This document shows, piece by piece, positions 3,039-16,653 of a stretch of DNA of 64,000 nt (positions are counted from its first letter, which is position 1; each line of letters begins with the position of its first letter). The notes beneath the pieces were generated by a model, which saw nothing but the letters and a program-made list of their open reading frames with translations, did no database searches and was not told the origin of the DNA. The position numbers and the translations under genes are program-made. The stretch covers positions 1,838,501-1,902,500 of the forward strand of contig NZ_CP022203.1 of the NCBI RefSeq assembly GCF_002305895.1. The letters are read 5' to 3'. The DNA is from Corallococcus macrosporus DSM 14697. GTDB lineage: Bacteria; Myxococcota; Myxococcia; Myxococcales; Myxococcaceae.

Positions 3039-3300
3039 GGGGCGCCTCCTGCGTCACCAGCTCCACGGGGGTGCGGCGCCTGGCGCGCACCTCGACGCCA
3101 GCCGGGGTGGGGGAGAAGACGACGTCGTGGCCGCCTGCGCACCTGTCGCACAAGGCGAAGACGAGCAGACCGTTGCGCCACAGCGTCGTCGTCTCCTCCA
3201 GGGGGCCGCGCCTGCGGCACATGCGGCACTCCAGGACACCGCGCTCGGCGTCGGCCTGGGCCTGGAGCACCCACGCGCGCTGGAGTTGCTCGGGCGTCAT
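3019..3300 (-). CDS. Small zinc-ribbon-like phage protein
   Basis: This 93-aa protein has two Cys pairs, CRMCRRRG near residue 25 and CDRCAGGHD near residue 51, the spacing of a treble-clef or zinc-ribbon fold. It starts with an ATGA overlap on the portal stop and runs into the head-morphogenesis start, so it is embedded in the head operon. The function is unknown; a structural or nucleic-acid-binding role is possible. Confidence 0.65.
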   Translation of the reverse strand: MTPEQLQRAWVLQAQADAERGVLECRMCRRRGPLEETTTLWRNGLLVFALCDRCAGGHDVVFSPTPAGVEVRARRRTPVELVTQEAPHVHGSR

Positions 3301-5096
3301 GTGGGCTTCCCCGAGAACCAGGTGTCGAACTCTTCGCGGGGGACAGGGACGTGCTCGGTGTCCATGTAGCGGCGGGCCAGCGCCAGGCGCCCTTGCGACA
3401 GGCGCTCCTCCTCGGCACGAAGCTCTTCGCGCAGCCCCAAGAGGCGCTTGGCCTCGCCCAAAAGCAAGCCCCTGTCCTTTTGGGGCTTCAGGTCTTCGAC
3501 GCCCGTCTGGATGCCCGCCAGCGTGAGGGTGATGGGGCGCTTCACCCAGTCGTCCCCAATCTTGCGGAACTCGCGGTGGAAGATGTCGCCGGCCAGGTGG
3601 CGGCCCTCCTCGGGAGTCAGCACACCCACGCGGACCAGGCGCTCGACCATCTCCGTCATGCGCTCGGGGTCTCTCGTGGCCGTCGTCTGGCTGCGAAAGC
3701 GCCAGAAGCGCACGCCCATGTCCGCGAGCACCTTTCGGTTGAGGAGGAAGTCGAACTCGTCGCGCTCCGGCTGGAACACCTGGTCCTCGGCGAAGCGGAG
3801 CTGTGCCTCCGCCACCGAGCGGTTGAAGTCACGCCCGTCGCCGCGCAACAGCGGTGGCAGACGGAAGGCGCTGCCCACCTTGTCGATGTTGCGTTGGTCA
3901 TACTGCTGAAAAAGGGCGTCCTGCTGCTGCGCGTCCGTCAGAGGGCGCAGCTCAATCTTCGCGCGGCCCCCGTCGCCTGTTCCGGAGCCATCGGCCTCCA
4001 AAATGAGAATCTTGTGGAAGTTGGCTTTGCCTTTGAGGTTCTCCTCAATGAAGCGCTCGATGCGCGGCACTGAGGCGTCGGAGAGCCGTCCTCCTGAGAC
4101 GAGCAGCGCCAGGGGCGGGACGGACTTGTTGTTGAAGTAGAGGTAGTTGACCTCCTCCATCTGCCGGGAGCCGAGGACGGACAGAAGGGTGCCCACCCAG
4201 CGCGGGATGCCATAGGGAGAGCGTGGCGAATGAATCGCGAAGTGGATGAGCTCCGTGGCGGGGCCGTCCGAGGCGTCCGCGGCCTTGAGGGCGGCGACGT
4301 CCGGGAAGGCGCGGCCCGTGAGGCGGGAGATGACGCGCGAGTCCCCGAAGGACTTGAAGTACACCCGCTCGCTGCCCTGCACCTGGATGTAGCGGCGCAG
4401 GCGTCGGCGGGTGGTGACGGTGTCGAAGCTGACGGCGGAGATGCGCACGCGCTCGCGCACTTCGACGGCCTCCTTATCCAGAGGGAGGAGTCGCACCGTG
4501 TACGAGGGGACGTAGACGAAGCGGGCGATGTCGCCCTTTCCGTCGCGCAGCACCTCCCAGTACGCGTTGCCCGTCACCTCGAGGTCGTGGCGGGTGCGGC
4601 GGCGCAGCTCGACGAAGCTGGAGTCGAAGCAGCAAAAATCGAAGAAGGACTCCAGGCGGGCCTTCTCAACCCGGGCCTGCTGACGAACCTCCTCCTCATG
4701 CGCGGCGACTTCCTCGTCCGAGGGGCGCAGGGCCGTCCCTGAAGGCAGCGTGCCCGCGTCACGCGCGGACAGACGCTCCAGGGCCATGGCGTCGGCGACC
4801 TTCTCCCGGGCTCCGTCGGCGTCGAAGTCGATGGCGGGCTCGAAGCGGAAGCCGAAGCCGTCGATGTTCGTCGCGTAGGCGTCGACGTTCTGCCTCAGCG
4901 AGTTGGAGTGCTCGACGAGGAGGCAGAGCGCTTCCGGCTCATATGGGGGCTGGAGCGCACCCGCGTCGGAGAAGGCCAATGCCTCCTCTCCGCCAGGACG
5001 ACTGGCGGGCTCGTCGACACGGGCGCCTACCACCACCGTCTTGAGGATGTCCTGGAGGCGCTCCTCAGCCTGGTGGACTTCCGTAGGCACTGTCAC
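3297..5096 (-). CDS. Phage portal protein
   Basis: This 599-aa protein would form the dodecameric portal ring at the capsid vertex. Features include an N-terminal SNSLRQNVDAYATNIDGFG helix region, a central TGNAYWEVLRD segment, an HFAIHSPRSPYGIPRWVG stretch and a C-terminal helical part with PPLLRGDGRDFNRSVAEAQ. These match the PBSX/HK97-type phage portal layout. I chose the GTG at 5096 because GGAGG lies 7 nt upstream and it overlaps the preceding stop by GTGA. The open frame extends much farther upstream, but that part is low-complexity Arg/Pro/Ala and overlaps another gene. Confidence 0.85.
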   Translation of the reverse strand: MTVPTEVHQAEERLQDILKTVVVGARVDEPASRPGGEEALAFSDAGALQPPYEPEALCLLVEHSNSLRQNVDAYATNIDGFGFRFEPAIDFDADGAREKVADAMALERLSARDAGTLPSGTALRPSDEEVAAHEEEVRQQARVEKARLESFFDFCCFDSSFVELRRRTRHDLEVTGNAYWEVLRDGKGDIARFVYVPSYTVRLLPLDKEAVEVRERVRISAVSFDTVTTRRRLRRYIQVQGSERVYFKSFGDSRVISRLTGRAFPDVAALKAADASDGPATELIHFAIHSPRSPYGIPRWVGTLLSVLGSRQMEEVNYLYFNNKSVPPLALLVSGGRLSDASVPRIERFIEENLKGKANFHKILILEADGSGTGDGGRAKIELRPLTDAQQQDALFQQYDQRNIDKVGSAFRLPPLLRGDGRDFNRSVAEAQLRFAEDQVFQPERDEFDFLLNRKVLADMGVRFWRFRSQTTATRDPERMTEMVERLVRVGVLTPEEGRHLAGDIFHREFRKIGDDWVKRPITLTLAGIQTGVEDLKPQKDRGLLLGEAKRLLGLREELRAEEERLSQGRLALARRYMDTEHVPVPREEFDTWFSGKPT

Positions 5097-5537: not shown

Positions 5538-6425
5538 ATGGACACCTACCGTGTCGCGAGGCTGCCCGCGCGCCTGCGTGGCTTCGCGCTGCCGGACACG
5601 AGCAAGTCACCCGAGGGTTATGTCGAGGCGGGCGACTATCTCGTGCTCGAGGAGAAGGCCCGCTATCCCACGCCCGACACCGACTACGCCCGGCTGGTGG
5701 CGCCCCAGTTGAGCGGACTCGACACTTGGGTGTGCACGCGCTGGCGCACGCAGCGCTACGCGACGCTCGTCTCCCAAGAGGGTGCCCCTGCCATGGCCCG
5801 GCTGTCGTTCGCCAATGAGCCGCTGGCCATCCAGGAGGAGCGTCTCTTCGCGCTCCTGTGGGCGTTCGTCGACTACCGGTACGACGTGAGCAGGGCGTAC
5901 TACCCGTGGGCGCTGCCGGGCGTCCGTGTCCCATTGGCGCCGCCCCGGCTGAACAACTGCTGCACCTTCGTCGAGGCCCTGTTGGTGAAGGCCTTCTCCG
6001 AGGCGCATGGTGCGGCCTTCTCGTGGGACGCGCGTCGCCACCGGCAGATGATGATCGCCTCCACCCAGGACTACTTTTCTCCCGTGACGGCGGCCGTCGA
6101 GTCCGGCATGGCCTTGCGTGCGCCGTCGGCGGATGTGCCTCCCCACCCATGGACGCTCATCCAGGGGTGGCGCAGCCAGTGGGACTCCGGGCACACCTTC
6201 CTCGTTCTGGACCACCACCCAGAGACAGACAAGGTGCTGGTGCTGGAGTCCAACGCTGCCTATGGGCTCGACGGCGTCGGCTACCGTGGCCTCGGCAACC
6301 TGCGGGACGTCGGCCTCCAGCCGCCTGCGGACTGGTGGGTGCGGAGCGAGGTGTGGACGTGGCGCCGCATCTGCTCGACGTACCCCTTCCGGCGGCAGGG
6401 CTGGTTGAAGGTCAAGGCGCGCTGA
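5538..6425 (+). CDS. NlpC/P60-like cysteine peptidase/amidase candidate
   Basis: The 295-aa product contains a segment with a candidate nucleophile Cys (LNNCCTFVEALLV, about residues 138-150). Roughly 80 residues later comes a candidate His block (SGHTFLVLDHHPETDKVLVL), the Cys-then-GH order of papain-like NlpC/P60 amidases. GGAGGA precedes the ATG at 5538. The gene is transcribed opposite to the head genes and marks the left edge of the accessory cargo block. A second, broken copy of its 3' end lies at 10289-12867. It could be a lysis enzyme or a peptidoglycan- or protein-modifying cargo enzyme; the fold call is tentative. Confidence 0.45.
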   Translation: MDTYRVARLPARLRGFALPDTSKSPEGYVEAGDYLVLEEKARYPTPDTDYARLVAPQLSGLDTWVCTRWRTQRYATLVSQEGAPAMARLSFANEPLAIQEERLFALLWAFVDYRYDVSRAYYPWALPGVRVPLAPPRLNNCCTFVEALLVKAFSEAHGAAFSWDARRHRQMMIASTQDYFSPVTAAVESGMALRAPSADVPPHPWTLIQGWRSQWDSGHTFLVLDHHPETDKVLVLESNAAYGLDGVGYRGLGNLRDVGLQPPADWWVRSEVWTWRRICSTYPFRRQGWLKVKAR

Positions 6426-6558
6426 GTCCGCAGAACTCGCGCTGACACAGGCTCCGCTCACAGGAGGCGGTGCAGTCAGGGGGCGCATGTGTGCAGTGTG
6501 GAACTCTCCCACTTCGTGGGACGCCCATTCAGTTTGGTCACTAGGTTGAGAACCTTGC

Positions 6559-6625
6559 GCCTCCGGCCTCATTTCTATAATATTCTTCGAGTTTAGGCCG
6601 CATTGCTGATGTGTCAGCGATGCGG
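6559..6625 (+). promoter_or_regulatory. Promoter and palindromic operator of the cargo operon
   Basis: A TATAAT hexamer at 6576-6581 has weak upstream TTG-containing candidates. It is followed by an imperfect palindrome at 6598-6625 (12-nt arms, one mismatch, 4-nt centre TGTG). The palindrome lies between the -10 box and the ATG at 6646, a position where a repressor would block transcription. The XRE protein of the second operon gene is the obvious candidate autoregulator. Confidence 0.5.
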
Positions 6626-6645
6626 CGAGGACCGAGGGGTCAAAC

Positions 6646-7476
6646 ATGGCGTCACGCAGTTGGGTTCCGGAGCCGGTGAAGTACATGGACGAGCGCGTTC
6701 CGGCTGGCTTCTTCCTGGACACGCTGCGTGCGCTTCGCGATGCGAATCGCATCGCTGCGGCAAGTCTCCGAGGTCTGGAGGCTGACTGGCGCAAAGGTGC
6801 CTTTGCCCACGTGCGGCGGGAGTTCTTCAACCAGCTTTGGGGACCGGTGGCTCGCAAGTACGGAGGACGCGCGCGAGCAGTGCTCAACGCGAACTTCGCG
6901 ACGAAGCACCTCGAGGTGACTCTGGGGGGAATCAAGTTCACCGCAGTAGCAGTGCAGTCTCCCAACGAGTTCCCGCGGGAAGCCGAGTATCGAACGTCAT
7001 TGGCCGGTGGAAACCAGCTCTCCATGCTGGCGCGGATGGGAATGGAAGAGGAGCAGCCGTTAGCAGAGGCGCAGCTCTACGCAGTATTCGGCTACTCAAG
7101 CGACGTCGAAGAGGAGAGCGGTCTGCCTGTGTTTGCGCACGTCGGGTTCCCGCACCACAGGAAGAAGAAGTACGTGGATATCAAGTCCTTGCACCAGTTG
7201 ATTCGCGAACTCGGTGGCCCCTTGAACTCGATTGATGCCGCGCGAGATTTGTCTACGGCGATCTCCAGCGACGCTAACCTCCCCTCCGAGGCAGAGTTCG
7301 AAGTGAACCTTACGGATGCAGAGCCGCCGTTGCGTATCGTCGGCCGTGATAACAAGGCTCCTAATAACCCCGAGCAGAGCCTGTCGACGGAGTTCGAGGA
7401 GGAGCGGACTGAAGACGAGCCGCATCTGAGTATCATCCCCCGTAACAATAAGATTCCTGTTACAGAGGACGAATGA
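6646..7476 (+). CDS. Unknown protein, first gene of cargo operon
   Basis: This 276-aa protein matches no family I recognise. The N-terminal two thirds look folded (mixed helix/strand, ending near PHHRKKKYVDIKSLHQLI). The last 80 residues are acidic and carry a repeated unit, LRIVGRDNKAPNNPE then LSIIPRNNKIPVTED, suggesting an internal duplication. Its stop overlaps the ATG of the XRE-ImmA gene by ATGA. Partners of XRE-ImmA/IrrE proteins are often toxins or proteolysis targets, so this may be the effector or the regulated substrate; that is inference. Confidence 0.7.
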   Translation: MASRSWVPEPVKYMDERVPAGFFLDTLRALRDANRIAAASLRGLEADWRKGAFAHVRREFFNQLWGPVARKYGGRARAVLNANFATKHLEVTLGGIKFTAVAVQSPNEFPREAEYRTSLAGGNQLSMLARMGMEEEQPLAEAQLYAVFGYSSDVEEESGLPVFAHVGFPHHRKKKYVDIKSLHQLIRELGGPLNSIDAARDLSTAISSDANLPSEAEFEVNLTDAEPPLRIVGRDNKAPNNPEQSLSTEFEEERTEDEPHLSIIPRNNKIPVTEDE

Positions 7477-8678
7477 TTCTAGGTACTCCAGGCTTCATTG
7501 GCTCACGCTTGGTGGAGGCGCGCCTTGAGCGCGGTATCCCCGTGCGCGCGCTCGCCGAGCGTGTTGAGATCAGTGTGCCTGCTATCTATGGTTATGAGAA
7601 AGGCGCCTCTAGTCCTCGAGCCGATGTGTTGCGGCGGTTGTGCGACGCGCTCGATGTGCCTGAACGCTACTTTCTCATGCCCGTGGAGGAACAACCTGGA
7701 AGCGCGGTCTTCTACCGCGCACAGCGCTCGACAAGTGTTGCTGCCTGCAATGCCGCAGAGGCAAAGCTAAGCTGGCTACACCGGCTCGGAACTGTAGTTG
7801 GCCAGTTTGTCGATCTGCCTTCCATGAGTTTGCCGGACTTTGCGATTCCAAGGGATCCGCTTGCTCTCTCGGATGGTGAAGTAGAGCGATTTGCGGTCGA
7901 AACGCGGCGCTACTGGGGGTTGGGACAAGGGCCAATTAGCAACATGGTTGCGTTGCTGGAGAAGCATGGCGTTCTGTTGGCGCGGGCCCAGGTTGATGCA
8001 GATGCTTTGGATGGTTTGTCTCAGTTCTTCCCAGATCACGCTGTAGGTCTGCTGGCTGCTAACAAAGAATCGGGACCGCGTTCGCGCTTCGATGTTGCGC
8101 ATGAACTCGGTCACCTTGTGCTTCATCGAGGAGTTGAACAGTCGCGACTCAATAAGCCAAGTGAGTGGCGTGCCTTTGAGAATCAAGCTCATCGATTTGC
8201 TGCGGCCTTGCTGTTTCCCCCAGAGGCATTTCGACACGAGGTGAAGTCATTCACTCTGGATGGTTTTTTTGAGTTGAAGATGCGCTGGAAGGTCTCTGTG
8301 CGGATGATGATGATGCAGGCCCAGAGATTGGGATTTTTGAGCGACGACGCGATGACTCGGCTTCACATCAACTACGCTCGCAGGGGCTATAAGCGGAGTG
8401 AACCCCTGGACGAGCAGCTTCCGCCGGAACAGCCGCGGTTGATTCGCCGTGCGATTGAGCTGTGGGTTGCAGAGCGAGGATTCGAGGAGGTGTGTGCGCA
8501 TTTGCCCTTCGCAAACCGCGACATCGTTACCTTGACGGGCGTTCCTCGTGGAGTGCTTACAGGGGAGAGCGCACAGGTTCTAAGACTGGTTCCTGCCTCT
8601 ACGGCTGCTGAAAACGCGCCTGGGCCGCAGGACACCCCGCCAGGAGGAGGAACGGTTACACCGCTTCGACGCTTGTGA
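7473..8678 (+). CDS. XRE-HTH / ImmA-IrrE metallopeptidase fusion
   Basis: Residues 10-66 form an XRE-type helix-turn-helix (VRALAERVEISVPAIYGYEK). Residues 155-290 carry an ImmA/IrrE zinc peptidase domain with HELGH at 210-214 and a downstream EN-x-A helix (FENQAHRFAAALLFPPEAF) providing the third ligand region. Such proteins bind a promoter and cleave a repressor or partner after a stress or infection cue. It is coupled by ATGA to the upstream unknown gene and has the operator at 6598-6625 at the operon head. Base composition is less GC-rich than the phage genes, consistent with recent acquisition. Confidence 0.85.
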   Translation: MILGTPGFIGSRLVEARLERGIPVRALAERVEISVPAIYGYEKGASSPRADVLRRLCDALDVPERYFLMPVEEQPGSAVFYRAQRSTSVAACNAAEAKLSWLHRLGTVVGQFVDLPSMSLPDFAIPRDPLALSDGEVERFAVETRRYWGLGQGPISNMVALLEKHGVLLARAQVDADALDGLSQFFPDHAVGLLAANKESGPRSRFDVAHELGHLVLHRGVEQSRLNKPSEWRAFENQAHRFAAALLFPPEAFRHEVKSFTLDGFFELKMRWKVSVRMMMMQAQRLGFLSDDAMTRLHINYARRGYKRSEPLDEQLPPEQPRLIRRAIELWVAERGFEEVCAHLPFANRDIVTLTGVPRGVLTGESAQVLRLVPASTAAENAPGPQDTPPGGGTVTPLRRL

Positions 8679-8847
8679 CATCGGGTGGGCGCCTTCCGGT
8701 GACCCGCACGCGGATCCCCGCTTCCTCTGCCCTCGCCAAGAGGTCGAAGCGTGCCGCGCTGCGGCCATGGGCAATGCCGGTGTCTTTGATGCTGCCGTGT
8801 AGGTCGGGGGGCAGTATCGTCGCGTGCGGTGGGCGCGAGTCGAGATC
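8656..8847 (-). pseudogene. 5'-truncated gene fragment, unknown
   Basis: This is an open minus-strand frame without a plausible start, GC-rich in third positions. It reads like genuine protein (DLHGSIKDTGIAHG then FDLLARAEEAGIRVRVTGRR) and ends overlapping the 3' end of the XRE-ImmA gene. It looks like the C-terminus of a gene whose front was replaced when the DUF3800 gene arrived. I do not recognise the family. Confidence 0.3.
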
Positions 8848-8867
8848 TCAGTCGTCGGGGTGGCAAT

Positions 8868-9965
8868 GTGAATGTGAATCTATACTGCGATGAGTCTGGA
8901 AACGGAGGGCCTAACTACTTCGATCTGGAGCAGCCAGTACATGTGCTTGCGGGACTTCTGGTGCCAGATGATGCGAGAGGTAAGCTCGTAGGCTTTATCC
9001 AAAAGGTTCGCAATGAGTACCCACAGGGAAAGGAGACGAAAGGGAAGACGCTACTCAAATCCCCCAGGGGGCGCCGTGTGCTGGCGGACTTTATTGATGA
9101 CGTGGCCAGCGTGGGATGTGGATTTACGTTCGTTGTCGCGGAGAGGCGGTATTGCGCGGCTGCAAAAATCGTCGAGACGTTCTTTGACCCAGGCCATAAT
9201 CCGAGTGCCGAGTGGTTGCCTACGAACGCCAATGTGGCCCGAAAGAAACTTGCTGAGATAATTCAGGCATTGCCGGACAGATATCTTCAAAATTTCGTGA
9301 CAGCATATAGAGAGCCGACGTTGGATGGATTGGCGGAGTCGGCAAGGTCGATTGGCTATGCGCTAGATTTGAGTGGGCATTCCGTCTTTGCTAGGACCGT
9401 TCGGGGGAATCTCAATGTCATGAATGCCGTGCTTTCTGCGGAGTTGTTGGTGACTGAGGAGGTTAATCGTAAGTCCTCTACGAGTCTGAATTATCCGGTA
9501 TTTACTCTGTTTTTGAGTCTCAGTGATGCGCTGCTTGCTAGGGCGGGGCACTCTGGAGATGTCGTCCATGACGTGACGAAGGAGTTTGAACGGGCGTTTC
9601 GGGATGCGTTTCGCAGAATGCAGAATGTGGGTGTTTCTCCGTATTATGAAGAGGCTTTTCTCCAGGATGGGCGACCGGCGCGACTCAAAGTAGAGGCCTT
9701 CAAAGCCTTCCGAACAGGGGAGTCGATAGAGGAGCCCGAAGTGCGTGGGGCCGATTACACTGCAAATGCCGTAAAGGGAGTCGTGCTCATGGGGACGGGC
9801 GATAGTGAACTGGGGTCGTGCCCTCACATGCGTCGAATTGCGAAGAGGGTGCTCCCGTCTTTGCTTCAGTCTGGCGGAGACATAATCGGCTCCGAGGCGT
9901 TCTGTGCAAGCGTGATAGCCCCGATGCTGGAGGCTCTTCGCGGCTTCGCGTCGCAAGAGGATTAG
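8868..9965 (+). CDS. DUF3800-like protein (predicted RNase H-fold)
   Basis: The N-terminus NLYCDESGN is the hallmark of DUF3800, followed by a hydrophobic strand VHVLAGLLV and a further acidic motif farther on (FTFVVAERRY). The family is predicted to have an RNase H-like fold and is frequent in phages and defence islands; its biochemistry is poorly known. I placed the start at GTG 8868, since family members begin a few residues before the DESG motif and a GGGGTGG lies just upstream; GTG 8829 is possible. At 365 aa it is about normal length. Codons are AT-richer than the neighbouring phage genes, suggesting transfer. It lies 190 bp after the XRE-ImmA gene and may be part of the same system. 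Confidence 0.75.
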   Translation: MNVNLYCDESGNGGPNYFDLEQPVHVLAGLLVPDDARGKLVGFIQKVRNEYPQGKETKGKTLLKSPRGRRVLADFIDDVASVGCGFTFVVAERRYCAAAKIVETFFDPGHNPSAEWLPTNANVARKKLAEIIQALPDRYLQNFVTAYREPTLDGLAESARSIGYALDLSGHSVFARTVRGNLNVMNAVLSAELLVTEEVNRKSSTSLNYPVFTLFLSLSDALLARAGHSGDVVHDVTKEFERAFRDAFRRMQNVGVSPYYEEAFLQDGRPARLKVEAFKAFRTGESIEEPEVRGADYTANAVKGVVLMGTGDSELGSCPHMRRIAKRVLPSLLQSGGDIIGSEAFCASVIAPMLEALRGFASQED

Positions 9966-10112: not shown

Positions 10113-10230
10113 CTAACCAATCACCCGCACCCCAATCTCCCCGGTGTCTCGTCGCTCGGGCCCCCGCTCGCGCTGGCACGCCAGGGCAACGGCCCAGAAC
10201 TTGTCCGCGTGCCCGCGGTTGGTGCGCTCG
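10113..10230 (-). pseudogene. Remnant of large-terminase C-terminus
   Basis: This short minus-strand frame encodes [21 protein letters not shown] and ends GEIGVRVIG. It is almost the same as the last 38 residues of the terminase at 14524 except for a few substitutions. Upstream the similarity stops abruptly and fused DNA similar to the peptidase 3' region begins. It is therefore a duplicated gene end from recombination between related prophages. Confidence 0.8.
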
Positions 10231-10415
10231 GCGTCGAAGGAGGGCCGGGATGCGCGCTCAGTGCGCTTCGGGCGGTCCTCCCTCGCCGTTGACCACCATG
10301 CGGAGACGGACAAGGTACTGGTGCTGTAGAGCGACAGCAAAGTTGACCCCCTCGCGACACTAAAACTGACCCCCTCCGAGGGGCCTCCACCCGCAGCACC
10401 TGGAGGCAGTTCGCG

Positions 10416-11723
10416 ATGGAAGAGTCAGTGAAGGACGTGGCACCCCGCCCGACGGAGGTGCCGATGGTCGAGCAGGACGTGGTGCGACAGATGCGCGTGC
10501 TGGCGGAGGCCGGCTGGGGCGTAAAGGCCATCGCACGCGAGGTGGGCGTGTCGCGCAACACCGTGCGCCGCTACCTGCGGCACGGGCGGGCGGCCGAGGT
10601 GCAGGTGCGCCCCGAGGCGCGGGCACTGGACGCGGCGGCCCGAGAGCGCGCGCTGGCGCTGTGGGCGAGCACGGCGGAGGGCAACGCCGTCGTGGTGCAG
10701 GCGCTGCTCACGCAGGAGGGCCACGCGGCGAGCGTGCGCACGGTGCAGCGAGCGGTGGAGGGCAGGCGCCAGCAGGTGCGCGCGGCGCAAGTGGCCAGCG
10801 TGCGCTTCGACACCGCGCCGGGGCGGCAGATGCAGGTGGACTTTGGCGAGAAGAAAGTCCTCCTCGGGGGCGTGCTGGTGAAGGTGTACCTGCTGGTGGC
10901 GGTGCTGAGCCACTCGCGCCGCCTCTTCGTGCGCGCCTTCCTCAACCAGCGGGGCGACGACTGGCGCGAGGGCATCGCGGCGGCGTTCGTGCACTTCGGT
11001 GGTGTGCCGTTGGAGGTGCTGGGCGACAACGCGCGTGCTCTCGTCCTCGGGCGCGACAGGGACACCGCGACGGTGCGCTTCCACCCGGCCTACGCCGCCT
11101 TTTGCCGCGACTGGGACGTCACCCCTCGCGCCTGCGGGCCATACCGCGCACGCACCAAAGGCAAGACGGAGTCGGGGGTGAAGTACGTCAAGCGCAACGC
11201 GCTCGCCGGACGCACCTTCGAGTCCTTCGCCGGGCTGCAGGCGCACCTGGCCGCATGGATGGTCGAGGCGGATGCCCGGGTGCATGGCACGACGCACGAG
11301 ACGCCCGTGGCCCGCTTTGAGCGCGACGAGAAGACGGCGCTGCGTGCGCTGCCGCTGCGCGCGCTGCCACGGCGCGAGCAGCGTCTGAAACGGCGGGTGG
11401 CCCACGACGCCCTCGTCGACGTGGACACCATTCGCTACAGCGTGCCGCACCGGCTCGTACGCGAGCACGTGGAGGTCCTCGTCGGCGACGCCGACGTGCG
11501 CATCTTCCACGGCGGAGTCGAGGTGGCTCGGCACATACGCGGCCGCGAGCCGCACGCGCGCATCATCAAGGCCGAGCACTGGCAGGGCCTGTGGCGACAG
11601 CAGTCCAAGGAGGTTTCGGGGGTGGCGAGCGCTGCCGCACCCTCGGCATTGAATGCGCTGGGCCGCAGCCTCGCGGACTACGAGAGGGCCATCGCGGGCG
11701 GCGTGAAGCGAGGTGCCGCGTGA
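10416..11723 (+). CDS. istA: IS21-family transposase IstA
   Basis: The 435-aa product has an N-terminal helix-turn-helix (GVKAIAREVGVSRNTVRRYL) and an rve-type integrase core. DDE residues are visible in QVDFGE, in LGDNARALV and in the Glu of KGKTESGVKYVK. A beta-rich C-terminal domain follows (VDVDTIRYSVP). It catalyses strand transfer of the element. GTGA overlap links it to IstB. Confidence 0.92.
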   Translation: MEESVKDVAPRPTEVPMVEQDVVRQMRVLAEAGWGVKAIAREVGVSRNTVRRYLRHGRAAEVQVRPEARALDAAARERALALWASTAEGNAVVVQALLTQEGHAASVRTVQRAVEGRRQQVRAAQVASVRFDTAPGRQMQVDFGEKKVLLGGVLVKVYLLVAVLSHSRRLFVRAFLNQRGDDWREGIAAAFVHFGGVPLEVLGDNARALVLGRDRDTATVRFHPAYAAFCRDWDVTPRACGPYRARTKGKTESGVKYVKRNALAGRTFESFAGLQAHLAAWMVEADARVHGTTHETPVARFERDEKTALRALPLRALPRREQRLKRRVAHDALVDVDTIRYSVPHRLVREHVEVLVGDADVRIFHGGVEVARHIRGREPHARIIKAEHWQGLWRQQSKEVSGVASAAAPSALNALGRSLADYERAIAGGVKRGAA

Positions 11724-12514
11724 GCGCCGACATCGTGCACGCGCGCGTCGTGGAGCACCTGCAGCGGCTGCGCCTCGGACACCTCGCCGAGAGACTCGAC
11801 GCGCTGCTGTCGGAAGCGGCCCGCGGCGAGCCCAGCTACCTGGCCTTCCTCGACGGCTTGCTGCGCGAGGAGGTGGGCGCCAAGCAGAGAAAGCGCGTCA
11901 GCATGGGCATCACCATCGCCCACTTCCCGGCCGTCAAGACGCTCGAGGACTTCGACTTTCGGGCGCAGCCTGGCGTGGACGCGAAGCTGGTGCGCGAGCT
12001 CGCACAGGGGCGCTTCATCGCGAGCGCGGAGAACGTCCTCGTCTTCGGGCCACCAGGCGTGGGCAAGACGCACCTGGCCATCGGCCTGGGGCGCGCCGCC
12101 GTCGAGGCCGGCCACTCCGTCCTCTTCACGTCCGCGACGACGCTGCTCGCCGCGCTCGCCAAGGCCGAGAGTGAGGGGGCCCTGCGCGACAAGCTCAACT
12201 ACTTCGCCAAGCCCAAGCTGCTCGTCATCGACGAACTGGGCTACCTGCCCTTCGAGAAGCGCGCCGCCCACCTCTTCTTCCAGTTGGTGGCGCGCCGGTA
12301 CGAGAAGGGCAGCATGCTCATCACCACCAACCAGCTCGTCGGCCAATGGGGCCACGTCTTCGGTGACGACGTGCTGGCGGCAGCCATCCTCGACCGACTG
12401 CTGCACCACAGCCACACGCTCCTCATCCAGGGCGACAGCTACCGGCTGCGGCACAAGCGCAAGGCCGGGCTGCTGACGCGCGGCACGGCAACGGCGCAGA
12501 GCTCCACCGAGTAG
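11720..12514 (+). CDS. istB: IS21-family helper ATPase IstB
   Basis: The 264-aa AAA+ protein has Walker A GPPGVGKTHLA, Walker B LLVIDELGYLPF and a C-terminal DRLLHHSHTLLIQGDSYR motif diagnostic of IstB. It assists IstA in target capture. The GTG start at 11720 overlaps the istA stop. Confidence 0.92.
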   Translation: MSADIVHARVVEHLQRLRLGHLAERLDALLSEAARGEPSYLAFLDGLLREEVGAKQRKRVSMGITIAHFPAVKTLEDFDFRAQPGVDAKLVRELAQGRFIASAENVLVFGPPGVGKTHLAIGLGRAAVEAGHSVLFTSATTLLAALAKAESEGALRDKLNYFAKPKLLVIDELGYLPFEKRAAHLFFQLVARRYEKGSMLITTNQLVGQWGHVFGDDVLAAAILDRLLHHSHTLLIQGDSYRLRHKRKAGLLTRGTATAQSSTE

Positions 12515-12867
12515 CAGAAGACGGGCGTGTGGGCCGGGAAGGGCCTACGCTCCGCCCGCGGGGAAACAGCCCCCGCGGGCTCCGCTTCGGCGGCGCCCCC
12601 GACGACGAGCAGCAACAACCGGCCCTCCCGGAGGGGGTCAGTTTTACTGGCGTGAGGGGGTCAGAAATTGCTGTCGCCTGACAGGTGCTGGAGTCCAACG
12701 CTGCCTATGGGCTCGACGGCGTCGGCTACCGTGGCCTCGGCAACCTGCGGGACGTCGGCCTCCAGCCGCCTGCGGACTGGTGGGTGCGGAGCGAGGTGTG
12801 GACGTGGCGCCGCATCTGCTCGACGTACCCCTTCCGGCGGCAGGCCTGGCTGAAGGTTAAGGAGTGA

Positions 12868-13295
12868 GCGCCCGCAGAGTGCGGAGGCTGCGTCGTATAT
12901 CGCTGACCGACCACCAGCGCTTGTTGGTGCTCTTGGCCGAGAAATCGGACGGGAGTGCGTATGGAGGAGCGGCGCCGAAGAGCGCCGCTAACGAGGGCAG
13001 GGCATTGGGCCAATTGACGGCTGGCTGCGTTTGGTTGCGAAAGGAGGCCTGTGGCTGCCGCCCGAAGGTCAAAGCCCCGCGAGGACTATTCATGGGAGCT
13101 ATAGCGGCTACGCCCGGTTGACGGTCAGTCAAGGTGAGCAGTACAACGATGGGTAGGGGCACTCGACGGATGCCCGCCGCCCACACCGGCAAAGCCGAAC
13201 TGGCACCGACGTTGTTACCCAACGCTCTCACCTTTGAGCGCTGCGGTCCTGAGTGGGCCACGACCGACTAAGGCGCTTTCTGAGGAGAGAGTTCC
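12868..13295 (+). other. Intergenic stretch in cargo block 2
   Basis: After the peptidase remnant there is no convincing gene. A short plus-strand frame (12864-13121) lacks a ribosome-binding site and has weak codon bias. GAGGAGAG just before 13296 is the ribosome-binding site of the next gene. Nothing else stands out. Confidence 0.4.
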
Positions 13296-13946
13296 ATGTC
13301 ACGTCGGACGTTTACGAGCGTCGAGGTCGAGCACCTGAAGCGCTCGGCGAAGAAGGCGGCTAAGCAGGAGGGAATCCCCCACCTGCAGTGGCTGAACAAC
13401 TTCGCAAAGAGCGCGGGCTACATCGACTTCCGCGACCTGAAGCACCGTGCAAAGCCGGGCTCGAAGGCGGGTGCTTCGCCGAAGCAGTCTGCTCCGCCCG
13501 ACTCGCCGCCTCCACGCGTCGAGAACGGGAGCAAGCACCGTCTCATGGAGTTGGTCGAGGAGCACGGCCCCTGCCGTTCGCAGTGGCGCCGCGGTCCGGC
13601 GTTCGCTTATGGCTGCATCCTGTGGAAGGGGCACGACGGTCCACACAGTCGGTTCGGGAAGTCGTGGACCGACGCCGAAGGCCACATGCCGACGGCCGCC
13701 GAACTCCGCCAACTCGAGCACGAAGAGGCGACCGGCACCATGCGGGAGTTCGTCCTGAAAGACGGCGAGTTCGTCGAGGTCACGCCGGAAGACAGCGTCC
13801 GTAGGCCCGGAGAGGGGCGCAGCAAGTTCCGCTACCTGGAAGAGACGCTCGAAGCCGAGGACGACGAGCCAGACGACGAGACGTTCCCTCCGGGGGACGA
13901 CGGCTTCGTTGATGAAGACGAGGATGACGCCGACGACAGTGAATAG
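13296..13946 (+). CDS. Unknown cargo protein (216 aa)
   Basis: It is preceded by GAGGAGAG 8 nt upstream. The N-terminal 45 residues (KRSAKKAAKQEGIPHLQWL) form a basic helical segment, followed by a Pro-rich linker and a central domain with a Cys pair region (CRSQWRRGPAFAYGCILWKG). The C-terminal tail is very acidic (Glu/Asp-rich last 45 residues). Acidic tails are common in inhibitors and DNA mimics, but no function can be assigned. It is convergent with the 109-aa gene on the other strand. Confidence 0.65.
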   Translation: MSRRTFTSVEVEHLKRSAKKAAKQEGIPHLQWLNNFAKSAGYIDFRDLKHRAKPGSKAGASPKQSAPPDSPPPRVENGSKHRLMELVEEHGPCRSQWRRGPAFAYGCILWKGHDGPHSRFGKSWTDAEGHMPTAAELRQLEHEEATGTMREFVLKDGEFVEVTPEDSVRRPGEGRSKFRYLEETLEAEDDEPDDETFPPGDDGFVDEDEDDADDSE

Positions 13947-14000
13947 GGCGAGCCGAGGGCGAAGGTCGTGTTCGACCCTCCGCCCTCGGTGCGCGGTTCG

Positions 14001-14330
14001 CTACCTCACGACGTGCGTCGAGGTCGTGGTCGCCGACTCGATGGTCCACTTGCCATCAACATGGACCAACGAGCCGGTGGCGGTCGCCTCGACCTTCTCT
14101 CCGTTCTCGCCTTGCTCCGCCGGGGTGTCTCCAACGAAGTTGATGCGTGCGCGGAAAGCGATCCGCCCGCGTCCATCCCAGTCCGCGCGCTCAACCTCAC
14201 CCTCGTCGAACTCAAACGGCGACCCGTTCGTATCTGCGAGCGCGCCGCTGAGGTCGTCGTCCTCGAAGAGTAGGCGTCCACCGATCTCCATCAGCATGCT
14301 CTCCACGATCTCTACTGGCTGCTTGGCCAT
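14001..14330 (-). CDS. Unknown small cargo protein (109 aa)
   Basis: The start at 14330 has GGAGAAAGAA directly upstream. The product begins MAKQPVEIVESMLMEIGG and has a beta-rich C-terminus (GTGSLVHVDGKW-like pattern), an SH3 or lipocalin-like strand alternation by eye. The open frame extends farther upstream, but that extension overlaps terminase DNA and lacks protein-like composition. No family is recognised. Confidence 0.6.
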   Translation of the reverse strand: MAKQPVEIVESMLMEIGGRLLFEDDDLSGALADTNGSPFEFDEGEVERADWDGRGRIAFRARINFVGDTPAEQGENGEKVEATATGSLVHVDGKWTIESATTTSTHVVR

Positions 14331-14523
14331 TTCTTTCTCCTTGGGGACCAATCCCCAAGGCCCTTTACAAAATGGGATCTGCGCAATCGGTCGCGGAGCC
14401 AACTTTTTTGAATCCTGAGTGGTTTCAGGGGGGGCTCCTGTGGATGCGGTTATAGGGAGCCAGTTCGAGCGCTTCGTTGTCGCGCGCGCTGGGAGAATTT
14501 GGATGCCTACGAAGGCAGCCCAA

Positions 14524-15958
14524 TCACCCAATCACCCGCACCCCAATCTCGCCGATGCGCGGGCCGCCCGTTGTCCGCTCCTTCTGGCACGCGAGCGCCA
14601 CTGCCCAGAACTTGTCCGCGTGCCCGCGGTTGGTGCGCTCGGCGTCGAAGGACACCTTCCCCGAGGGCAGCACGCGCCGCTTGATGGAGTGAATCTGCCC
14701 GACAAGCTCACGCTGGCGCGGCAGTGTGACATCGCGGCGCTGGAGCAGAATCTTGAAGTCGGTGGCCCAGCGCTCCTTGGCCTCGTTGGTGAAGCTCTCC
14801 TCCACCACCTGGGGAAAGTCGCGGGCCAGGTTCTCGGCAAGGTTCATTCCGATACCGCTCTTATCAACGCTGAGGCGCGCCACGGGCAGGACGGACAGGA
14901 GTCGACGGAGGTGGGTTTCCTGCTCCGCGAAGGGGACACCTTCGAAGCTGCGCAGCATCCTGCAGGTGAAGCGGCCCTCCACCTCTTCGAAGACGGCCAG
15001 CTCGGAGCGGTCTCGCGTGCGGCCCACGTCGAAGCCCGCCACCAGGCGGCCCTGGGGCACGGGCACGTCGGAGGCGTCCTGGGCCATCGGCAGCTCGTCG
15101 GTGGTGCACGGGAGGATGAGCTCGTAGGGGAGGAAGCTGTAGGACTCGTCGACGTAAAAGGCATTCGAACTCCTGCTGGAAGTCCTCCTGGGGCAAGGAG
15201 TCGAACTGCTCGGTGAGGACGGGGCGCCCGAAGCGAGCGACGCGCTCCTCGGTGGACATGTGGGGTGCCTCCACTGCGGCGCGCCTCACGTCGAGGGAGA
15301 AGAAGCGGCATAGCCACCAGGGCACCAGTTGGCGGGTGTGGTGCGGGTACTTGCGCAGTTCCTGGGTGTCTATCTCCCAGAAGATGCCGCGCCGGCCGAG
15401 CGGGGTGCTGCCCCCTGTGAGTTGTCCATGCGAGCGCAGGATGAGGGCGGTGCTGCCTGTATAGACTTCGCGGTCGTTGACCAGGTGCGCCAGCTCGTCG
15501 AGGTAGACATCGCCGCGCTTGCCGCGCGGAGGCTTGGCGGGAACGGAGATGATGCGCGAGAGGCGCCGGCCTCGGGAGTTCGACTCGAAGGCCAGCTCCG
15601 TCTTGGCATCCGTCACGAGCTTCTTCTGGTAGGCGAGCGGCAGCTCCTCGTACACCTGCCGGGCGATGAGCACCTTCTCGACAGCGTCCGAGAGGTTGTA
15701 CGAAACGAAGACCGCCGTGTGGCCGTCGCGCAGGTGGCACCGCGCCAGGGCCTCGAGAGCGAAGAGGAAGGAGAAGCCCACCTGTCGGCTCTTCGCCACC
15801 CACCTGAAGCGGGAGCGGTTGCCGAGAAAGGACTGCTGGTACGGCTCCAGCACCACCGGCTCGTTGTCGTACTGGCACAGCCCGGAAATGAATCCGGACT
15901 CGGTGGCCAGCCACTGTGTGAGGTCATCCTCGGTGCGCTTGACGATGCCGAGCGTCAC
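14524..15958 (-). pseudogene. Large terminase subunit, frameshifted
   Basis: The ATPase part is read from GTG 15958 (GGAGGAC 6 nt upstream): adenine-binding LEPYQQSFL, a Walker A-like AKSRQVGFS near residue 53, and Walker B VYLDELAH near 133. At about 15154-15163 (TGCCTTTTAC on the minus strand) the frame shifts. The remaining protein, [15 protein letters not shown] onward, continues in another frame to 14524 with the nuclease domain ([29 protein letters not shown]). One base too many, or two missing, explains it. Packaging would fail unless the shift is programmed or a sequencing error. About 477 residues would result once repaired, a normal length. Confidence 0.85.
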
Positions 15959-16038
15959 GCTGTCCTCCCTGCATGTTCCGTTGCTTTCTCTCGGCACCCG
16001 AGCGCGTATGGCTGCGTCCTCTTCACGACGGAGCCGCC

Positions 16039-16653
16039 ATGTCTGCCTATGCCGCTGTTGCCCGCCCACCTCGCACGCTCACGGAGAAGGAGGTGGCGCT
16101 CCTGCTGCGCGTCACGGGGGCGCACAAGGAGGGCTTCAGGGACCACTGCCTCTACAGCCTCGCGCTGGCCTCGGGCCTGCGTGAGCACGAATTGGTCGCC
16201 CTCAACATCGGCGACATCTTCAACGAGCGCGGGCGCGCGCGCCGGCACGTGATGCTGACTGTCTTCAAGGGCAGCCGCCGACACCCGAGTCCCCAGGAAA
16301 TCGTTCTCGCGGACGCGGTGCGCGCGAAGCTGGAGAAGCTGCTGCGCCTGAAGCGTGCGCAGGGACACGACGTGGGGCCCCTGGCGCCGCTCTTCCTGAG
16401 TCGCAAGGGCATGCGCCTGTCCACGCGGCAGGTGCGCCACGGCTTCGCGGTGTGGCAGGAGCGCGCGGGCCTGGATCGGCACCTGAACTTCCACTGCACC
16501 CGTCACACCGCATGCACTGGGGTGTACCGGCGGACGAAGGACATCCGCCTCACCCAGCGCTTCGCGCGCCAGCGCAGCGTCGACTCCACCGTCATCTACA
16601 CGCACCCCTCGGACGACGAGCTGGTGCGCGTGACGCAAGAGTTGCCCTGCTGA
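16039..16653 (+). CDS. Small tyrosine recombinase
   Basis: The 204-aa phage-integrase catalytic domain lacks the usual N-terminal arm- and core-binding domains. The Arg of SGLREHEL, the Lys of [12 protein letters not shown] and the tyrosine in STVIYTHPS are present. The second active-site position, normally in an LGH motif, reads FARQR, so the usual His appears replaced. It is divergent from the large terminase and opposite to the late genes. With a separate serine integrase at 34773, this may be a phage dimer-resolution or accessory recombinase rather than the integrase. Confidence 0.8.

Follow-up and report, generated by a model that had tools for sequence, protein, structure and literature searches.

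The window, the whole 64,000-nucleotide stretch analysed here, spans positions 1,838,501-1,902,500 of a single-contig 8.97-Mb genome, and the packaging end of a prophage fills its first 20 kb. PHROG and Pfam searches place the portal gene (3297-5051, minus strand) to the left of a group of cargo genes and the gene of the large terminase subunit (14524-16069, minus strand, read in two frames) to the right, where it forms the right border of the cargo slot. The left border is a phrog_26504 gene of unassigned function (5538-6425, plus strand; PHROG match with E = 1.8e-190). Inside the slot lie rmrT (6646-7476, 276 aa), rmrA (7473-8678, 401 aa) and a DUF3800 gene (8868-9965, 365 aa, GTG start), all on the plus strand, and a second cargo pocket occupies approximately 12900-14520. 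The phrog_26504 gene, this pocket and an IS21 element in the same slot had escaped the original prediction. The original prediction, made from the sequence before any search, had described three reading frames at this place that run against the phage genes and are richer in AT. Both features are borne out: portal and terminase are encoded on the minus strand, and the G+C content is 0.59, 0.57 and 0.54 in the three genes versus 0.66-0.69 in the phage genes. The overlap of the first two frames by an ATGA, at 7473-7476, is likewise present.

The product of rmrA joins an XRE helix-turn-helix to an M78 (ImmA/IrrE) protease, with the Pfam domains HTH_3 and Peptidase_M78. It is matched by 14 PADLOC RmrA models, the best with E = 6.9e-106 over residues 1-372; the HELGH motif is intact at residue 210, as is the downstream M78 helix with its E. 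CapP and DdrO chains are matched in the PDB. The NCBIfam spr1629 family matches RmrA at 1e-50, under the family cutoff: the score against NF052239, the RipAB spr1629 equivalog, is 172.9 bits versus a cutoff of 335, which marks a related protein of a different equivalog. The 276-aa RmrT has no match in Pfam, PHROG or NCBIfam, and is matched by four PADLOC RmrT models (best E = 1.3e-10). Its sequence is diverged: the closest relatives beyond the prophage family share 30-57% identity with it. These matches identify 6646-8678 as a predicted RosmerTA toxin-antitoxin pair of an already known kind, carried by the prophage. An earlier reading had cast the 276-aa protein as the regulated substrate of the protease; the matches to RmrT models reassign it to the role of effector, the putative toxin. 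The broader expectation, that prophage cargo here encodes a defence or toxin-antitoxin system, fits a RosmerTA pair in a hypervariable prophage slot.

RosmerTA systems are toxin-antitoxin pairs that act in phage defence and combine an ImmA-type antitoxin with toxins of diverse kinds; for the pair of the Gordonia phage Kita both defence and membrane depolarisation have been shown (PMC10440598). The pair in the window shares with them the order of toxin and antitoxin genes, the gene sizes, the XRE and M78 domains of the antitoxin, the RmrT and RmrA matches and carriage by a prophage. It differs in that its RmrT, a putative toxin, falls in a diverged subgroup whose acidic tail is extended and bears repeats. 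RipAB (Spr1630/Spr1629) of Streptococcus pneumoniae is also a Rosmer toxin-antitoxin system, in which the target of RipA is the sliding clamp DnaN (PMC12795458). No NCBIfam family is closer to RmrA than the antitoxin family of this system; RipA acts on DnaN, whereas the clamp motif of the RmrT in the window is only suggestive. CapH/CapP and DdrO/PprI (IrrE) likewise combine an XRE repressor with an M78 protease, but they place the two functions on separate proteins, whereas RmrA fuses both and is paired with a toxin.

A relative of RmrT is present in 6 of the 96 family genomes, and one of RmrA, at E <= 1e-30, in 13 of the 145 from the order. RmrA follows RmrT in all six myxobacterial RmrT carriers. 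An ORF of approximately 200-265 aa lies directly upstream of RmrA in 23 of the 24 phage and plasmid loci that we fetched (one of the 23, L086, read from raw sequence), the exception being Paenibacillus phage Dash. Of these upstream partners ten were scanned, and all ten match RmrT models; two of the models that match the RmrT of the window, PDLC03933/03934, also recognise such partners in phages of Gram-positive bacteria and of enterobacteria. RmrA with a partner of the same kind is present on plasmids of several phyla as well. A tblastn search of phage and plasmid records found no RmrT relatives, and viral contigs compared with the alpha-proteobacterial RmrT alignment contained none; the wide RmrT alignment had no usable block. 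The proposed co-occurrence of the 276-aa protein with XRE-ImmA proteins is thus confirmed by 23 of the 24 phage and plasmid loci together with the six myxobacterial loci, and the two-gene linkage of rmrT and rmrA is kept across lineages.

The prediction of one promoter and operator region ahead of the pair also stands. Alignment of four loci reveals a conserved promoter-like block, CCTTGC-17-TATAAT (6553-6581, plus strand), 5' of rmrT, together with a conserved CATTGCTGA; one of these loci is from Archangium and has no matching prophage DNA around it. The block is not listed by a sigma-70 scan. Between the block and the rmrT start codon, a repeat search finds the inverted repeat GCCGCATTGCTGA-tgtg-TCAGCGATGCGGC (6597-6626, arms 6597-6609 and 6614-6626). 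An equally good repeat arises in 3 of 300 shuffles, and the window contains no second strong copy. We regard this repeat as the likely operator of RmrA, and autoregulation of the operon by RmrA appears likely as well.

The cargo between portal and terminase differs among about 20 related prophage copies. These were drawn from a genus search, IMG/VR and the RmrT search, and not all of them are independent: L046 and L075 appear to be one element. Several cargo sets in the relatives match defence families, and the cargo there includes a GmrSD_N/HEPN pair (PADLOC NsnA, 2e-56), an AAA/HNH pair (PADLOC PDC-M01A/B), a PD-T7-5-like gene, a MACPF protein, and trypsin-like and GDSL proteins. Relatives also contain copies of the phrog_26504 gene, and many of them have fragments of its 3' end inside the slot. 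In the window, a terminase 3'-end scar of 125 nt (10117-10241, minus strand), detected by repeat search and blastn and 84% identical to the intact terL end, is fused to the first part of a phrog_26504 3' fragment (10259-10326, plus strand, blastn). The second part of the fragment (12684-12862, plus strand), a 98% repeat of 6239-6417, follows an IS21-type element (10327-12683, plus strand; istA 10416-11723, istB about 11591-12514) with a 7-nt target duplication, GGTGCTG. Fusions that join about 130 nt of the terL 3' end to a 3' piece of phrog_26504 recur with nearly identical breakpoints in the window and L010, in L044 and in L046. Such fusions are evidently recombination scars, and they supply additional homology within the slot. 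The IS21 element is missing from the sister prophage L010; this and the 7-nt duplication indicate that it either inserted after the slot exchange described below or has dropped out of the sister.

In a comparison with the prophage of G038, a genome of another genus, each kilobase between about -4000 and 17000 is 0.95-0.996 identical, with about 0.99 over the cargo. Further out the identity is mostly 0.87-0.95, with one kilobase at 0.77, and over 3.4 kb at the right end of the window the matches in G038 are confined to short pieces of 70-84%. The higher identity over the cargo than further out is consistent with prophages of different genera having recently exchanged the slot together with its flanking DNA, probably via homologous recombination. 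The comparison thereby locates a cargo slot that appears to be swapped by recombination across genera. No near match to the prophage DNA was found in the phage collection. The Mx-alpha prophages of Myxococcus, prophage-like elements about 100 kb long and present in several copies, carry sitBAI toxin-immunity cassettes and variable toxin cargo (PMC5562445). The prophages studied here have comparable features: terL occurs a second time in the genome that contains the window, and two copies of the prophage lie about 100 kb from each other in G038. Unlike RmrTA, the SitA toxins are lipoproteins that are transferred to other cells. The present pair adds RosmerTA to the known cargo of myxobacterial prophages.

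Family identity, two-gene linkage, the conserved upstream block, cargo status and exchange are directly supported by these observations, and we infer the regulation, toxicity, trigger and defence of rmrTA as follows. RmrA would bind the operator before rmrT and repress its own operon, and would neutralise RmrT by binding it or possibly by cutting it. Phage infection or a DNA-damage signal, which is ssDNA in related pairs, would abolish both repression and neutralisation by RmrA. The M78 proteases PprI and CapP cut XRE repressors upon activation by ssDNA (PMC10904395). RmrT, then made or freed, would stop the cell, probably at the DNA or the replisome, and the prophage would benefit from a host shielded from other phages. 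The pair travels in the portal-terminase slot, which is exchanged when related prophages recombine homologously within the phage genes on either side. The suggestion that the XRE-ImmA protein is an operator-bound sensor survives in part: it fits a RosmerTA antitoxin with a candidate operator, but the roles of its partners have changed. We hold it very probable that the locus carries a RosmerTA pair in which RmrA represses and neutralises RmrT until infection, moving as exchanged defence cargo, with the DUF3800 gene independent of it.

Toxin-antitoxin pairs on mobile elements may also serve the element itself, and roles in keeping DNA in the chromosome are common for type II systems. The location of rmrTA on a prophage would suit a pair that acts mainly as an addiction module, a function that does not exclude phage defence. 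The other defence-type genes that occupy the slot in relatives speak against this being the main function, as does the fact that tested RosmerTA systems defend against phages (PMC10440598); we consider addiction as the main role unlikely, though the best of the alternatives. Far less probable is that the XRE-ImmA protein is merely a prophage repressor or antirepressor for lysogeny with the 276-aa protein as its substrate. Proteins with XRE and M78 domains do control repressors of ICEs and phages, and a match to PHROG 2439 files RmrA as a transcriptional regulator, but the pair is cargo that is absent from most related prophages, has its own promoter block, and is paralleled on plasmids from several phyla, where RmrA again has a partner of that kind.

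The three-gene grouping of the original prediction does not survive the distribution of the DUF3800 gene. The Pfam assignment of this gene (PF12686) is itself a partial match with E = 4.8e-4 and 21.3 bits, versus a gathering score of 21. Of the 96 family genomes, 4 contain the gene or a relative: the genome of the window, the near-identical sister G038, and G001 and G064, whose proteins are 35-41% identical and whose genomes lack an RmrT match. The gene starts 190 nt past RmrA, behind a terminase 3'-end remnant (8696-8735, minus strand) that follows rmrA directly. The remnant was found by local alignment to the terL 3' end of L011 (score 38, reached in 0 of 1000 shuffles); local alignments to the window's own terL or to that of L012 are not significant. 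In L011, from the same genus, and in L012, the terminase 3' end comes within about 20 nt of RmrA and rmrTA is alone in the slot. No DUF3800 annotation was found beside the 24 phage and plasmid RmrA loci, of which the plasmid gene tables are incomplete and L086 is unannotated. Co-occurrence of DUF3800 with RmrT-RmrA hence fails in all relatives except the near-identical prophage copy, and membership in the same operon is contradicted by the 190-nt distance, the intervening remnant and the absence from sister copies. A single defence system with DUF3800 as its effector, as first proposed, is scarcely credible and largely refuted: the genes are adjacent and on the same strand in the window and in the near-identical sister prophage L010, but DUF3800 is lacking in L011, L012, L013, L014 and the annotated phage and plasmid RmrA loci, its carriers outside the window and L010 have no RmrT match, and the terminase remnant splits it from RmrA. 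The gene is a separate passenger that shares the slot with rmrTA. The adjacency of rmrTA to the terminase in L011 and L012 and the terL remnant between RmrA and DUF3800 suggest that rmrTA first stood beside the terminase and DUF3800 was added later. With two of three genes assigned to RosmerTA and the third a separate passenger, the locus is largely of a known kind.

We also modelled the structure of RmrT. A model from three sequences has low confidence (mean pLDDT 55.9), with ordered regions at about 5-104 and 143-190 and disorder at 194-276; a single-sequence model (mean pLDDT 36) is unusable. A Foldseek search with the RmrT model gave no hit below 0.001, and a PDB sequence search by the RmrT profile gave nothing. 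In VIA-align comparisons of the low-confidence model, PD-(D/E)XK nucleases rank at the top, with EcoRV at Z 5.9 over 129 residues. Lower rows include BglII, DrdV, CidB, the restriction endonuclease 3ndh, a Holliday junction resolvase and a cap-snatching endonuclease, interleaved with the unrelated folds Rep15 and fructose bisphosphatase; every Z is below 8, a level that the tool rates middling. With low confidence, the RmrT domain may resemble PD-(D/E)XK nucleases. Judged by eye, the RmrT alignments contain no conserved D...(D/E)xK triad, and because of this we do not claim nuclease activity.

The RmrT tail contains an acidic-P-x-L-x-I-(I/V) motif, in two copies in the window, and the tail of L014 has a perfect 57-nt tandem repeat. 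QLSII/QMNLF-like peptides in the tails of L011 and L014, together with the known target of RipA, suggest a possible link to the sliding clamp. The strict clamp-binding motif is present in 1 of 22 members of the RmrT family versus 0.2 expected, which is not significant (p = 0.18), and its loose form in 3 of 22 (p = 0.06). The pattern hydrophobic-x-hydrophobic-K/R-K/R occurs in 6 of 22 tails versus 0.86 expected, with none of 2000 shuffles as high, for a pattern picked after viewing the tails and among several tried. As a speculation that we think will probably prove wrong, RmrT could be a degenerate PD-(D/E)XK fold whose tail motifs (HLSII/QLSII/QMNLF, in myxobacteria) dock on the sliding clamp, with RmrA holding the same tail and the motif copy number tuning toxicity or neutralisation. 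The mode of action is known for few members of this toxin family, to which the present work contributes concrete relatives and a tail-motif hypothesis.

One more observation concerns the right border of the slot: the terminase gene at 14524-16069 has a conserved +1 frameshift, a feature perhaps more worthy of attention than the operon.

The prophage gene for the terminase large subunit, terL (14524-16069, - strand), is spread over two reading frames; at CTT-TTA-C (15146-15161, - strand) a +1 shift leads from one into the other. Related prophage copies, partly non-independent, display the identical shift in 20 of 20 cases, each time accompanied by an invariant 21-nt block that is the longest invariant run within ±150 nt. 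The terL of the distant locus L084 consists of a single frame and is read straight through without a shift. TTA codons are absent from the 3002 codons of nine phage genes of the window. Judging by sequence, the junction looks like a putative programmed +1 ribosomal frameshift, prfB-like, with the rare TTA codon replacing the stop. A literature search revealed no obvious earlier report of such a terL frameshift. A tyrosine integrase-like ORF (15973-16653) overlaps the 5' end of the terminase gene on the opposite strand, and is kept in relatives.

Within the cargo slot between portal and terminase, several prophages (the one in the window and those of loci L044, L046 and L078) carry scars in which terminase and phrog_26504 3' ends are fused at nearly identical breakpoints; the window regions involved are 6239-6417, 10117-10326 and 12684-12862. 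The scars are possible recombination patches. The phrog_26504 fragment to the right of the IS21-type element (10327-12683) matches the full gene (5538-6425, + strand) at 98%, compared with 89% for the fragment of the sister prophage, as if the window fragment had undergone gene conversion.

The slot cargo itself is variable. A second copy of the terminase in the same genome (G000:C1:2276901-2278091, locus L073; 95% protein identity) has its slot filled with different cargo, and the same slot in a congeneric genome, G062, holds a MACPF (perforin-like) protein (L082:5278-6741). A second cargo pocket in the window (12870-14520) contains a 216-aa ORF (+ strand) and a 176-aa ORF (- strand), neither with a convincing family match in Pfam, PADLOC, PHROG or NCBIfam. 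In the related locus L014, the C-terminal tail of the RosmerTA toxin gene rmrT includes a perfect 57-nt tandem repeat of 2.6 copies (L014:10270-10415), which encodes repeated DELQMNL units.
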